From Halopiger aswanensis (GTDB lineage: Archaea; Halobacteriota; Halobacteria; Halobacteriales; Natrialbaceae), in NCBI RefSeq assembly GCF_003610195.1, contig NZ_RAPO01000001.1, positions 1-64,000 on the forward strand: a stretch of 64,000 nt of DNA. The letters run 5' to 3'. A program made the position numbers and the translations under genes. Each line of letters opens with the position of its first letter. Positions within the stretch are counted from its first letter, which is position 1. This document shows, one piece after another, positions 32,474-36,753 of the stretch. The notes below the pieces were generated by a model. The model worked only from the letters and a program-made list of their open reading frames with translations, was not told where the DNA came from and searched no databases.

Positions 32474-33754
32474 TTACGGATGCGGCCCCGAACCGGCGCT
32501 TTCCTCGCGATCAGTGTCGTCCGAACCGTCCGTATCCTCGAGCGGCGCGAGTCGCGCGTCGCGCAACAGCACCTTCTTGACGATCGAGGGGTTCTCGAGC
32601 AGGCGGTGTTTGGCGTGGGCGCCGCGGCCGCGTCCTCGGCCCTCGCGCTCGGACTGGATCACGTTGAGGAAGTTCTGCTCTTGGAGGATCTCCTGGACGC
32701 GGCGCTCGGAGAGGACGTCGAAATCGAGCTGACGGGCGATCTCCTTGTACTGGTTGTAGATGATCTTCGTCGGGAACTCCTTCTCGGAGCTGTTCTCGGT
32801 CAGCAGCGTCAACGCGTAGAGGATGGCCTTGGCCTGCTGGGGCGAGCCCTCGATCAGTTCGTTGAAGCGGTCAGCCTCGGTCTTCTCCTTGGCGTCCCGG
32901 ACGTGCTCGGCGGTGACGCGGGTGTCGTTTTGCTTCTTGGCGATCCGGCCCGCGTTTCGGAGGATGTCGATCGCCTTGCGCGCGTCCCCGTGTTCCTGCG
33001 CCGCGAGTGCCGCGGTCAGGGGGATCACGTCGTCCGAGAGCACTCCGTCGTGAAAGGCGTCGCGGCGCTTCTCGAGGATCTCGACGAGTTGATTGGCGTC
33101 GTACGGCGAGAAGACGAGTTCGTCCCGCGAGAGGCTGGACTTGACGCGCTCGGAGAGGTGATCGGGGAAGTCGATCTTGTTCGAGATGCCGATGATGCCG
33201 ATGCTCGAGTCCGAGATGCGGCGGTTCTCGCCGGCGCGGGAGAGTTTGCGGAGGACCTCGTCGTCCTCGAGCATGTCGATCTCGTCCAAGATGACGATGG
33301 TCACGTCGGTGCAGTGGTCGACGGCCTGCCAGAGGCGCTTGTAGTAGTCGCCGGTGCCGAGACCGCGGTCGGGGACGGAGACGCCGCTCTCGTCGGGTTC
33401 GTTGACGATCTGGGCGATCGTCTTGATGACCGACGCCTCCGTGTTCTGTTCGCCGCAGTCGATGAAGGCGTACTTCACCGTGACGTCGTCGCGGCGGGCC
33501 TCCGAGATCACGCGCTTGGTGACCGACCGCGAGATGAGGGATTTGCCGGTTCCGGTCTTGCCGAAGATGAACAGGTGATTGGGTTCGCTCCCGAAGATAG
33601 CCGGGTTGAGAGCGTCCGCGACCCGTTGCATCTGCTCGTCACGCCCGACGATCCGGTCCGGCCCCGGAAGGTGCGTGATCTCGAGCAGCCGCTCGTCGGC
33701 GAAGACCGGATCGTCGTACCGAAAGAGTGGATCACGATCGTCGTTCGCGGACAT
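32474..33754 (-). CDS. orc1: Orc1/Cdc6 replication initiator
   Basis: 426 aa. The AAA+ core has Walker A GKTGTGKS (about 65-72), Walker B VIILDEIDML and sensor ISNKIDFPDHL. The C-terminal winged helix (about 305-395: IYNQYKEIARQLDFDVLSER) binds ORB elements and is followed by an acidic tail. It is transcribed away from the adjacent 960-bp origin-like region, the usual haloarchaeal origin layout. A TATA box (GCTTTATTTC) lies about 34 nt before the ATG. Confidence 0.95.
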   Translation of the reverse strand: MSANDDRDPLFRYDDPVFADERLLEITHLPGPDRIVGRDEQMQRVADALNPAIFGSEPNHLFIFGKTGTGKSLISRSVTKRVISEARRDDVTVKYAFIDCGEQNTEASVIKTIAQIVNEPDESGVSVPDRGLGTGDYYKRLWQAVDHCTDVTIVILDEIDMLEDDEVLRKLSRAGENRRISDSSIGIIGISNKIDFPDHLSERVKSSLSRDELVFSPYDANQLVEILEKRRDAFHDGVLSDDVIPLTAALAAQEHGDARKAIDILRNAGRIAKKQNDTRVTAEHVRDAKEKTEADRFNELIEGSPQQAKAILYALTLLTENSSEKEFPTKIIYNQYKEIARQLDFDVLSERRVQEILQEQNFLNVIQSEREGRGRGRGAHAKHRLLENPSIVKKVLLRDARLAPLEDTDGSDDTDREESAGSGPHP

Positions 33755-33783
33755 TGCAGTGTCGGGCGACTACTGGCTGGATT

Positions 33784-33794
33784 GAAATAAAGCT
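33784..33794 (-). promoter_or_regulatory. orc1 promoter TATA box
   Basis: The minus strand reads AGCTTTATTTC, about 34 nt before the orc1 ATG. It almost abuts the partial ORB at 33799-33820, so Orc1 could repress its own gene. Confidence 0.45.
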
Positions 33795-33798
33795 ATGG

Positions 33799-33820
33799 AG
33801 ATCGATCGCGGATGTAAATC
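33799..33820 (-). repeat. partial ORB-like element
   Basis: The minus strand reads GATTTACATCCGCGATCGAT: the TTACATCCGCGA half of the motif is intact but the G-string is missing. It lies closest to the orc1 promoter. Confidence 0.5.
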
Positions 33821-33925
33821 GCCTGTGTTAGCATCTAGATGGCGATAATACCCGACGAACGACGGCACCGATACGAATCGCCGCCATCGCGCGTCTAATC
33901 GGCAGTTGCCCTGCCGTTCGCGGAC

Positions 33926-33950
33926 GGACACCCCCGTCGCGGATGTAACC
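33926..33950 (-). repeat. ORB element, left-facing
   Basis: The minus strand reads GTTACATCCGCGACGGGGGT, matching the two right-facing copies at nearly every position, with the G-string on the left. Confidence 0.8.
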
Positions 33951-34098
33951 GCCGAACGTCGCCGCCCTGCCGGATTACGGTCGAAATCCGAGTTCGAGGA
34001 TCGGCGAGCTACTGAACTACGACGAAGAATCCGACTCGACTCGAGCCAAAAACTACGGAAACGCGATTTTCGGATCGGTGCCCGCATTCCGGGCTCGG

Positions 34099-34126
34099 CA
34101 CACACACCACCGTCGCGTATGTAACG
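34099..34126 (-). repeat. ORB element, left-facing, variant G-string
   Basis: The minus strand reads GTTACATACGCGACGGTGGT followed by GTGTG. One G of the G-string is replaced by T. Confidence 0.75.
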
Positions 34127-34194
34127 GGAAATAGGCGGGTGGGGTGTAGGTTGATCCTCGATTTTCTCGAGATTCGGTCCGTCTGTCGCGGTAT

Positions 34195-34218
34195 TTTACA
34201 ACCGCGACGGGGGTGTGT
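34195..34218 (+). repeat. ORB element, right-facing
   Basis: TTTACAACCGCGACGGGGGT then GTG. Inverted relative to the element at 34099-34126, about 70 bp away. Confidence 0.8.
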
Positions 34219-34249
34219 TCCCGTACAGAACCCTCACCCACCGACAAGG

Positions 34250-34274
34250 GGTTACAAACGCGAGGGGGGTGTGT
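34250..34274 (+). repeat. ORB element, right-facing
   Basis: GTTACAAACGCGAGGGGGGT then GTG. Same orientation as the previous copy, 55 bp downstream. Confidence 0.8.
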
Positions 34275-34397
34275 CCCTCCCCACCCTGTCAGATTGCAAT
34301 CTCTGGGATTATCGCTCGAGAATGAGGACGAACTAGATATTCCATGGACCTCTACTCTCGGTTTGTGCAACAGACTTCGGTACAGGTGAATATCTAT

Positions 34398-34492
34398 ACT
34401 AGAGAACTAGATACTAGACGATACTAGACTAGTCTAACGAGATAGAGGAGGAAAGAAGAAAGAGACGAGGAAAGAAAAAGGAGAGAAACTAG
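34398..34492. repeat. ACTAG cluster and polypurine tract in the origin
   Basis: ACTAG occurs at 34398, 34406, 34413, 34423 and 34428, and AACTAGTT at 34486. Between them 34444-34488 is purine on the plus strand apart from a single C. CTAG is otherwise scarce in this window. Probably part of the unwinding or regulatory zone of the origin. Confidence 0.7.
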
Positions 34493-34508
34493 TTCTGATC
34501 TGCAAACT

Positions 34509-34560
34509 CCACCAATCACAACTGTTCGAGGAACCCACCAATCACGACCGCTCGAGGCAC
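34509..34560 (+). repeat. 26-bp imperfect tandem repeat, two copies
   Basis: Two adjacent copies begin CCACCAATCAC and contain TCGAGG. Copy 1 is 34509-34534 and copy 2 is 34535-34560, with four or five mismatches. Not a known ORB type. Confidence 0.7.
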
Positions 34561-34718
34561 CAGTATCTGAGTCCCATCCGCCGTCACGAACGCATCACTT
34601 TTCCACACCCGCTCGATACCTCCCGTATGATCGGATCATCTACGTGGCTTTACGGTCCATCCTCTCGGGGACAGTTGCTCGAGCAATCGCCCACCAAATC
34701 GGACGACGATAGCTAACC

Positions 34719-35531
34719 ATGCCGGACGACACTGATCGCAACCGGTCGGACGACTCCGACACGACGCTCCCTACCGATCGAACGACGCCCGCCGTCGCCG
34801 TCGTCGACGCCCAGTCCCCGGGCAACGTGGGAACGATCGCTCGAGCGATGAAGAACTTCGGGTTCGAGGATCTTCTACTGATCGACCCGCCCGAACTCGA
34901 CCCCGACGGTGAGGCCTACGGCTTCGCGGGTCACGCTCGAGAGGACATCCTGCCGAACGCGACCGAAATCACGTTCGACGACCTCGTCGACAACTACCAC
35001 ACGATCGGCTGTACCGCGGTGACCAACGAGGACGACCGCAGCCACATCCGGTTCCCGTTCTCCACGCCGGCGGACCTCGCCGAGCGATTGCCGACCGTGG
35101 AGGCACCGACGGCGCTGGTGTTCGGCCGCGAGCGCGTCGGCCTGACCAACGAGGAACTCGAACGAATCGACGAAATCTGCTCGATCCCGGCCGCCGAGGA
35201 GTATCCGGTACTCAACCTCGGGCAGGCGGCGACGGTCACGCTCTACGAACTCCGGACGCTGACCCTGGACGAGGGGGACACCCAGCTTCCGGATCTCGAG
35301 CGCGTCCGCGCGCCCGAACCGATGTACGATCGGCTCTACGACCAGTGGGCGGACCTGCTCGAGGAGATCAATCACCCCGACGAGAAACGCGAGAAGACGA
35401 TGCGGATGCTCCGTCGCGTGCACGGCCGCGCCGATCTCACCAAGCGCGAGGCCAACACGCTGCTCGGATTGCTCAGGCGCGCGACGGAACGGCCAGCAGA
35501 ACGGTCGGAAACCGACCAGTCTAGCCGGTAG
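34719..35531 (+). CDS. trmJ: TrmJ-type SPOUT tRNA 2'-O-methyltransferase
   Basis: 270 aa. The SPOUT trefoil knot signatures are DAQSPGNVGTIARAMKNFGF (about 29-48), LVFGRERVGLTNEEL and IPAAEEYPVLNLGQAATVTLYEL. TrmJ methylates the ribose at tRNA position 32. The C-terminal 80 residues (EKREKTMRMLRRVHGRADLTKREANTL, read in parts) form the helical dimer/tRNA arm. It borders the origin region and is transcribed away from it. Confidence 0.9.
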   Translation: MPDDTDRNRSDDSDTTLPTDRTTPAVAVVDAQSPGNVGTIARAMKNFGFEDLLLIDPPELDPDGEAYGFAGHAREDILPNATEITFDDLVDNYHTIGCTAVTNEDDRSHIRFPFSTPADLAERLPTVEAPTALVFGRERVGLTNEELERIDEICSIPAAEEYPVLNLGQAATVTLYELRTLTLDEGDTQLPDLERVRAPEPMYDRLYDQWADLLEEINHPDEKREKTMRMLRRVHGRADLTKREANTLLGLLRRATERPAERSETDQSSR

Positions 35532-35637
35532 CGGTCGAGAGTGGCTCACACCAACCGTCGTCGCCTGTGACCGCGCTGACATATTTTCGGCAAAGAGGCC
35601 AGTACAATAATGTGGGTCTAGCGGCGACTCCTACGGC

Positions 35638-36753
35638 ATGACTACGTTCGATCGACGAACCACGCTGTCGCTCGTCGGCTCCGGAATGCTCGCCCTCGCC
35701 GGCTGTTCGGAAACCGCTGACGACGCCGATGCCGGAACCGCCGACGGCACGGACGACGACGGCACTGAGGAGTCCGACGAAGGGGCTCGAGACGGGCAAT
35801 CGACCGCCGACGCCGACGTCTCGCTCGGAACGGAGCTCCCGTCGTACGCCTCCGTCCTCCCCGAGACGAGCGGAACCGGCTACTTCTACGGGGCGATCGA
35901 CGTCGAGACGATGGCGTCGCTGCTCGAGGGGTCCGACGCCGAGGGCGGCGACGAACCGAGCGACCCGCTGCTCGGCAATCCGATCCTCGTCGCGCTGTAC
36001 TGCTCGCACGCCATCAGTCTGCTCGGGAGCTCGCCGAGCCTCGAGGCGTATCAGGCGAACAGCAAAACCAATCAATCCGATGACACGAAGGAGACGTTCG
36101 TCTTCGCCGACGGCGTCTACGCGTTCGTCGGCGCGTACGACTTCGACGGCCTCACGGCCGACCTCGAGAGTGCGGATGCCTACGACCCCGAAACCGTCTC
36201 CGGCGAGTACGCGACCTATACGGACCCCGAGACCGGCGAGGTCGTCGGGGTCACGGACGAGGTCTTCGCCTTCTCCGCTCCCAGCGGGAGCGACTCGGAC
36301 TTCGATCCGGTCACTGCGGTCGAGCGAACCGTCGCGACGGCCGCCGGCGAGCGCGAGCCGAAACACGCGGTCGATGACGGGTTCGCTGCCCTTCTCCGCG
36401 CGGGCGCGAACGACGGAATCGCACTCGGCCTCTTCACCTCGAACGACGAGTTCGCAGCCGAAACGCTCGAGAGCGCGGCCGACGACGCCGACCAACTCAC
36501 GTTCGCGTTCGACGCGTTCGAGGGAGCAAACGGCCTCCACCAGCACCTCTCGGTCGGGAACGGGGAGAGCAACGACGCCAGCGCACGCGCCATCGCGACC
36601 TACGCCGACGCCGAGCGACTCGACCGCGAGCGCCTCGAGTCGGAATCGTCGCTGGGAGCGGACGCCGATTCGGTCACCGTCGCGGCGGTGCAGGACGGGA
36701 CGACTGCCGTGGTCGACGCCGAGTACGCGGGCGACCTGGTCGACGGCGAATAG
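35638..36753 (+). CDS. Tat lipoprotein of unknown function
   Basis: 371 aa. DRRTTLSLVG is a Tat-like signal and LALAGC a lipobox at Cys23. An acidic linker (25-65) leads to a globular part with two similar halves (ASVLPETSGTGYFYGAIDVETM; FVFADGVYAFVGAYDF). No known domain is recognised; it is probably held on the outer face of the membrane. Convergent with the MFS gene (29 nt between stops). Confidence 0.7.
   Translation: MTTFDRRTTLSLVGSGMLALAGCSETADDADAGTADGTDDDGTEESDEGARDGQSTADADVSLGTELPSYASVLPETSGTGYFYGAIDVETMASLLEGSDAEGGDEPSDPLLGNPILVALYCSHAISLLGSSPSLEAYQANSKTNQSDDTKETFVFADGVYAFVGAYDFDGLTADLESADAYDPETVSGEYATYTDPETGEVVGVTDEVFAFSAPSGSDSDFDPVTAVERTVATAAGEREPKHAVDDGFAALLRAGANDGIALGLFTSNDEFAAETLESAADDADQLTFAFDAFEGANGLHQHLSVGNGESNDASARAIATYADAERLDRERLESESSLGADADSVTVAAVQDGTTAVVDAEYAGDLVDGE

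Follow-up and report, generated by a model that had tools for sequence, protein, structure and literature searches.

It is poorly understood how archaea keep an origin from firing a second time. In haloarchaea, Blow et al. 2016 (PMC4752239, Fig. 6D) described CTAG clusters upstream of orc1/cdc6 genes, at several origins per genome. They related the clusters to an orphan m4C methyltransferase that is conserved, and suggested that they act in replication; the text of that paper prints the motif as CATG, the figure legend as CTAG. Ouellette et al. 2018 (PMC5867850) saw a dense occurrence of CTAG at a single H. volcanii origin only (oriC2) and doubted a replication role, and Fullmer et al. 2019 (PMC6471742) left the function of the orphan methyltransferase open. 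Another element to be compared is the oriC2D titration region of Haloarcula hispanica, which restrains initiation (PMC3936714) and which, like the array discussed below, is rich in repeats and adjoins an orc1/cdc6 origin. It is made up of ORB repeats that titrate Cdc6, however, whereas the array is made up of methylation sites.

The Dam/GATC/SeqA system of E. coli oriC offers a parallel from bacteria, since there too an orphan methyltransferase has its palindromic 4-bp sites clustered at the origin. The haloarchaeal case differs in that the modification is m4C and not m6A, and in that CTAG is rare in the genome while GATC is common. We know of no SeqA homologue or SeqA-like reader for the CTAG system.

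Here, we consider a dense CTAG array in a stretch of 64,000 nucleotides of Halopiger aswanensis DNA, called the window below. The array is a well-supported further case of the published haloarchaeal origin clusters, with which it shares the motif, the non-coding place upstream of orc1/cdc6 and the occurrence at several origins: it is a significant non-coding cluster, found in orthologous places (46 of 50 family origins) and at several origins of the genome. Clusters and enzyme go together in this genome and across groups, but enzyme-bearing Halorubrum lack CTAG at oriC1. The preliminary description of this DNA had proposed that hemimethylation of the CTAG sites could mark new origins or limit re-initiation, an idea that was already known, as Blow et al. 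had published it. The main text of that paper gives density plots only, and the present analysis adds Halorubrum counter-examples and a ranking of tetramers. The placement relative to the ORBs, the specificity against AT-matched DNA, the phasing at oriC1, the doublets at the second origin and the turnover of sites with retention of their number are absent from the main texts of the three papers.

The array and the origin around it

The array occupies positions 34333-34492 (160 bp, unstranded) and contains seven CTAG, at 34333, 34399, 34407, 34414, 34424, 34429 and 34489, each of them preceded by A (ACTAG, 7/7). Its densest part (34399-34432, unstranded) has five sites in 34 bp, including at 34424-34432 a CTAGACTAG doublet, the commonest doublet type among the relatives. 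A further CTAG is present outside the array at 33835, and all eight positions are exactly those listed in the preliminary description. The window contains 29 CTAG in total, and the 22 outside the array amount to about one per 2.9 kb, very close to the one per 3 kb that had been estimated by eye.

It is important to point out that the motif is avoided across the window, with 29 sites observed against 94 expected from dinucleotide shuffling, and that its background in the genome, taken from 480 kb of samples, is 0.354 per kb. The AT content of the array is 59%, compared to 34% for the window. The array could in principle be a by-product, formed where the avoidance of CTAG is relaxed in AT-rich origin DNA, or by local duplication of the site; the avoidance itself, and the short imperfect tandem units at 34396-34429, would be in line with this. 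The counts, however, are not. Local dinucleotide shuffles yield a mean of 2.0-2.4 CTAG and reach seven in 0.15-0.25% of the trials, and real 160-bp genomic windows of 55-65% AT have a mean of 0.32 and a maximum of 3 (480 kb), which puts the array more than 20-fold above AT-matched DNA of the same genome. The possibility raised in the preliminary description, that its density is normal for intergenic DNA of this genome, did not hold against these AT-matched windows. Places where three CTAG follow one another with no gap above 30 bp number only seven in the whole 4.87-Mb genome, and the array is one of them. Formation as a by-product is further contradicted by the recurrence of arrays throughout the family and by the rank of CTAG among the oriC1 tetramers, first in two enzyme-bearing groups and 179th without the enzyme (see below). 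Chance and base composition are ruled out as the cause by the shuffles, the AT-matched windows and the control blocks described below, and tandem duplication was rejected as the full cause, since imperfect units exist but the spacings differ in the relatives. An origin of the array as a by-product is therefore highly improbable, and is largely refuted by these data.

Two other features are located at the end of the array. A polypurine tract at 34438-34488 overlaps it, with 97% purine over 40 bp (compared to 75% at the 99.9th percentile of the genome sample), and the CTAG group at C1:731.2 kb is also followed by a similar tract. As a general neighbour of the arrays, such a tract was rejected, a purine content of at least 85% being found at only 7 of the arrays tested. 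Just past the array, at 34509-34560, a direct repeat of 26 bp, CCACCAATCACRACYGYTCGAGG, occurs twice; it is not an ORB.

The array lies between an orc1/cdc6 family initiator gene (32474-33754, minus strand; 426 aa; TIGR02928, E 2e-124) and, across the origin from it, a gene for a TrmJ/YjtD-family RNA methyltransferase (34719-35531, plus strand; 270 aa). The ORB-like repeat sequence of this origin is CACNCCNCCGTCGCGNATGTAA. Nearest to the orc1/cdc6 start is the repeat TCGCGGATGTAA (33803-33818, plus strand), the G-string part of which is weak, and next comes ACACCCCCGTCGCGGATGTAAC (33928-33949, plus strand). An inverted pair follows, with its left arm at 34102-34125 (plus strand), its right arm at 34196-34221 (minus strand) and 71 nt separating the arms, and the last ORB ahead of the array is at 34250-34277 (minus strand). 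The array begins 56 bp past this last repeat, outside the ORB pair. Within the 1.3 kb upstream of the orc1/cdc6 gene, the 100 bp richest in AT (34380-34480, unstranded) overlap the array, and we take them as a candidate unwinding region. No Rfam match to a structured RNA was obtained within 33000-36000, and no excess of bacterial-type promoters or terminators was found.

With its orc1/cdc6 gene and its ORBs, the locus has the parts of an origin, as the preliminary description had called it, but it is not the universal one, which is oriC1 on contig C3. The orc1/cdc6 gene of the window is found in only 82 genomes of the order at E ≤1e-160, compared to 253/253 for the oriC1 gene, and the window origin is therefore a second, lineage-restricted one.

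Recurrence of the array at other origins

Four of the seven genomic CTAG triples are upstream of orc1/cdc6 genes, namely the window array and those at C3:504.4-504.6 kb, C1:731.2 kb and C12:14.5 kb. The orc1/cdc6 gene on contig C3 encodes the initiator of the universal oriC1. The ORBs there, CCCCTTCGTTTC and GAAACGAAGGGG, are inverted and flank an AT-rich region that holds all seven CTAG, and the groups at C1:731 kb and C12:14.5 kb, with 3-4 CTAG each, are likewise found between ORB-like inverted repeats. These observations bear on the option that the sites control transcription of the adjacent trmJ or orc1/cdc6 gene. While the end of the array is only 227 bp from the start of the downstream trmJ, and CTAG is enriched upstream of genes, in promoter regions, in Haloferax lucertense, the CTAG groups occur at four origins with differing neighbours, in three cases between ORBs, and the AT-rich DNA of the genome in general is without them. 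Such transcriptional control is quite improbable.

Turning to the relatives, we compared 50 family origins, i.e. the window and 49 others, with control blocks from the same loci. At least three CTAG per 160 bp are present in 46/50 of the origins and in 0/227 of the control blocks, and the densities are 4.39 and 0.27 per kb, respectively. The dense block at the origin, to which the preliminary description had drawn attention, is thus a recurring one, and AT-matched windows of the genome contain at most three sites. The exceptions are the loci L033, L055, L056 and L060, and among them L055 and L056 retain a single CTAGaCTAG doublet. The relatives also repeat the layout, with ORBs followed by a CTAG array. 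The inverted ORB pair (355+/441-; 34102-34221 in the window) has a near-constant 77-86 bp between its cores across the family, whereas the other spacers vary widely.

The arrays themselves align poorly between genera, with an identity of 0.58 compared to 0.515 for shuffled DNA and 0.69 for the ORB core. Despite this, each of them has 3-9 sites in 120 bp. The number of sites is thus retained while their positions have turned over, which indicates selection on the CTAG motif. The conserved unit is CTAG with A/T neighbours at very variable spacing, and the close spacings in the window-type arrays are mostly doublets (CTAGACTAG 43, CTAGCTAG 17 and CTAGAACTAG 15). Helical phasing was tested for these arrays and is absent.

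The methyltransferase and the CTAG content of oriC1

The H. aswanensis genome encodes a CTAG-type methyltransferase of 354 aa (C2:17749-18810), of the same group as HVO_0794 (zim) and M.MthZI of pFZ1, with 50% identity to the pFZ1-encoded enzyme over 92% of the length. The pFZ1 gene adjoins a gene for a MjaI-family nuclease. In the H. aswanensis genome, on the other hand, the profile RE_MjaI (PF09568) has no match, while the control genome of M. jannaschii was matched, and the enzyme is thus apparently an orphan. It is present in 47/47 of the named relatives tested and in 231/253 genomes of the order. A conserved and apparently orphan methyltransferase of the Zim type, as the preliminary description had it, is indeed found here. 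None of the neighbours of the methyltransferase gene is conserved across families, so that no reader gene was found among them, and a partner gene beside it was rejected, as none is conserved outside the family.

In H. volcanii, HVO_0794 was identified as the m4CTAG enzyme by homology to M.MthZI and by deletion, which abolished m4CTAG (Ouellette et al. 2018, PMC5867850). Methylation at CTAG has been reported for 97-98.7% of the sites in Natrinema and for 74.5% in Haloterrigena, and judging from such relatives the array sites are very probably methylated in the H. aswanensis strain as well. The other refuting possibility of the preliminary description, a lack of CTAG methylation in the species, did not hold either as far as these relatives go. 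In Haloferax lucertense, low-GC DNA has less-methylated CTAG sites, and the window array may for this reason be undermethylated.

We have also surveyed the ORB-to-ORB interval of oriC1 in 78 genomes, the group names being inferred from named loci, from the numbering and from the lineages published as lacking the enzyme. The CTAG density is 21.6 per kb in Natrialbaceae (n=20), 14.0 in genomes of other families with the enzyme (n=19), 8.1 in Haloferacaceae with the methyltransferase (n=21) and 2.2 in genomes without it (n=18), at an AT content of 0.49-0.52 in all four groups. The count in oriC of relatives that the preliminary description had called for thus gives some 8-22 per kb where the enzyme is present. 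CTAG ranks first among the tetramers of oriC1 in the Natrialbaceae and other-family groups, and 179th in genomes without the enzyme. Within Haloferacaceae, the density difference associated with the enzyme has p=0.001 by genome and p=0.03 by genus. Three enzyme-bearing Halorubrum genomes have no CTAG in the interval at all. It is important to note that the genomes without the enzyme are mostly Halorubrum or its relatives, and the correlation therefore rests on few independent losses. These genomes are also without the window-type origin. That GATC might stand in for CTAG in genomes lacking the enzyme was considered and rejected, as GATC is not raised in their oriC1 intervals (4.4 per kb).

The CTAG sites of oriC1 in Natrialbaceae share one face of the helix. 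They are spaced by 10, 20-22, 31-32 and 41-42 bp, with a helical period of 10.25-10.5 bp (0.36 compared to -0.05 for the null, sd 0.05). The positions are homologous, so that this phasing does not represent many independent events, and in other families it is a weak trend. In an alignment of oriC1, the CTAG columns are conserved above their neighbouring columns (p=2e-4).

Two further features of oriC1 may be mentioned. An element AAACAGTATCCG(T/C)A is conserved in the unwinding region of nearly all Natrialbaceae (L109, ~C3:504520), where it is placed between the first and the second CTAG. The universal Cdc6-1 (C3:502301-503900, L109) has an acidic insertion of ~100 residues within its AAA+ domain, and in most haloarchaea the protein matches end at this same point.

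Possible roles of the methylated sites

The anatomy and the conservation link the array to the origin and reveal selection on CTAG, and the enzyme is encoded in the same genome. That the array is functional and tied to the origin is almost certain: it is a part of orc1/cdc6-type origins that is under selection, and would serve the Zim-type orphan m4C methyltransferase as a substrate cluster. Its role is a matter of smaller probabilities. The reading that we tentatively prefer, at somewhat under an even chance, is that hemimethylation of the array would be read at the origins. The CTAG sites would be fully m4C-methylated between replication rounds, and the passage of the fork would leave the entire cluster hemimethylated for a time. 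This state could alter how the AT-rich region is bound or how it melts, by way of a putative reader protein or else through a changed stability of the duplex, and a new origin copy might in this way be told from an old one and its re-firing limited or timed. It is almost an even question whether the methylation state, rather than the bare sequence, would be what is read, and an effect on the timing of re-initiation is possible, though clearly short of probable.

SeqA in vitro favours GATC pairs 2-3 helical turns apart (PMC5145175), a preference that the phasing at oriC1 resembles; the analogy is closest there and weakest at the array of the window. One can imagine a haloarchaeal m4CTAG hemimethylation switch, evolved separately from Dam/SeqA, in which a putative reader would bind the phased sites of oriC1 and the doublets of the second origin and keep new origins inactive, but this specific scheme is rather unlikely. 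Counter-evidence to any control by hemimethylation comes from the deletion in H. volcanii, from the three enzyme-bearing Halorubrum genomes with no CTAG in oriC1, and from the window array being unphased and outside the ORB pair. In an H. volcanii strain lacking HVO_0794 together with the other RM genes, no growth defect was seen (PMC5867850), though this is a species that can do without its origins.

The main rival to the hemimethylation proposal is that CTAG acts as plain sequence, i.e. as a unit of the unwinding region that melts or that is bound by Orc1/Cdc6, MCM or another protein, with methylation being incidental or protective. This would account for the coincidence of the array with the AT-richest segment, and for the CTAG of oriC1 being between inverted ORBs, where H. 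hispanica has a required AT-rich unwinding region. The helical phasing at oriC1 fits protein binding, TpA steps are flexible and fit melting, and the loss of methylation is tolerated in H. volcanii. It would not account for the CTAG density being lower by fourfold or more without the enzyme, where AT content and ORB layout are unchanged, nor for the conserved unit being the methyltransferase's own site instead of a longer protein site. Taken together, we find this alternative possible but somewhat doubtful.

A third option is that m4C acts directly, by changing the stability of the AT-rich region such that a fully methylated origin would differ in its melting from a hemimethylated one, without a reader protein. 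The coincidence of the array with the AT-richest segment and a density that reaches 22 sites per kb between the ORBs of oriC1 are consistent with this. However, it leaves both the phasing at oriC1 and the CTAG doublets at the second origin unexplained, and is improbable.

What the survey yields is a testable candidate element with exact coordinates and named lineages, which is selected and not an effect of composition. If the methylation state is read, archaea would have in these arrays a counterpart to Dam/SeqA that is put together from other parts; if it is not, the arrays would be a previously unrecognised sequence element of haloarchaeal unwinding regions. In either case, they help to account for the retention of a rare, avoided motif and of an orphan methyltransferase in most haloarchaea (PMC6471742).

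Some CTAG-rich or methyltransferase-bearing places elsewhere deserve a comment. In another genome of the order (G235:C11:370965-371088), 15-bp tandem units CTAGCGACGAAACCT contain nine CTAG, giving seven overlapping triple matches; this run is not an origin-type array. The low-GC, plasmid-like region C5:31000-38000 (L113) of H. aswanensis has 19 CTAG in 7 kb, which means that the avoidance of the motif is much weaker on that replicon. Finally, a second, weakly CcrM-like methyltransferase gene is found in the low-GC region C2:1034854-1041018, 4 kb from two divergent orc1/cdc6-like genes, and this region looks like a mobile element.
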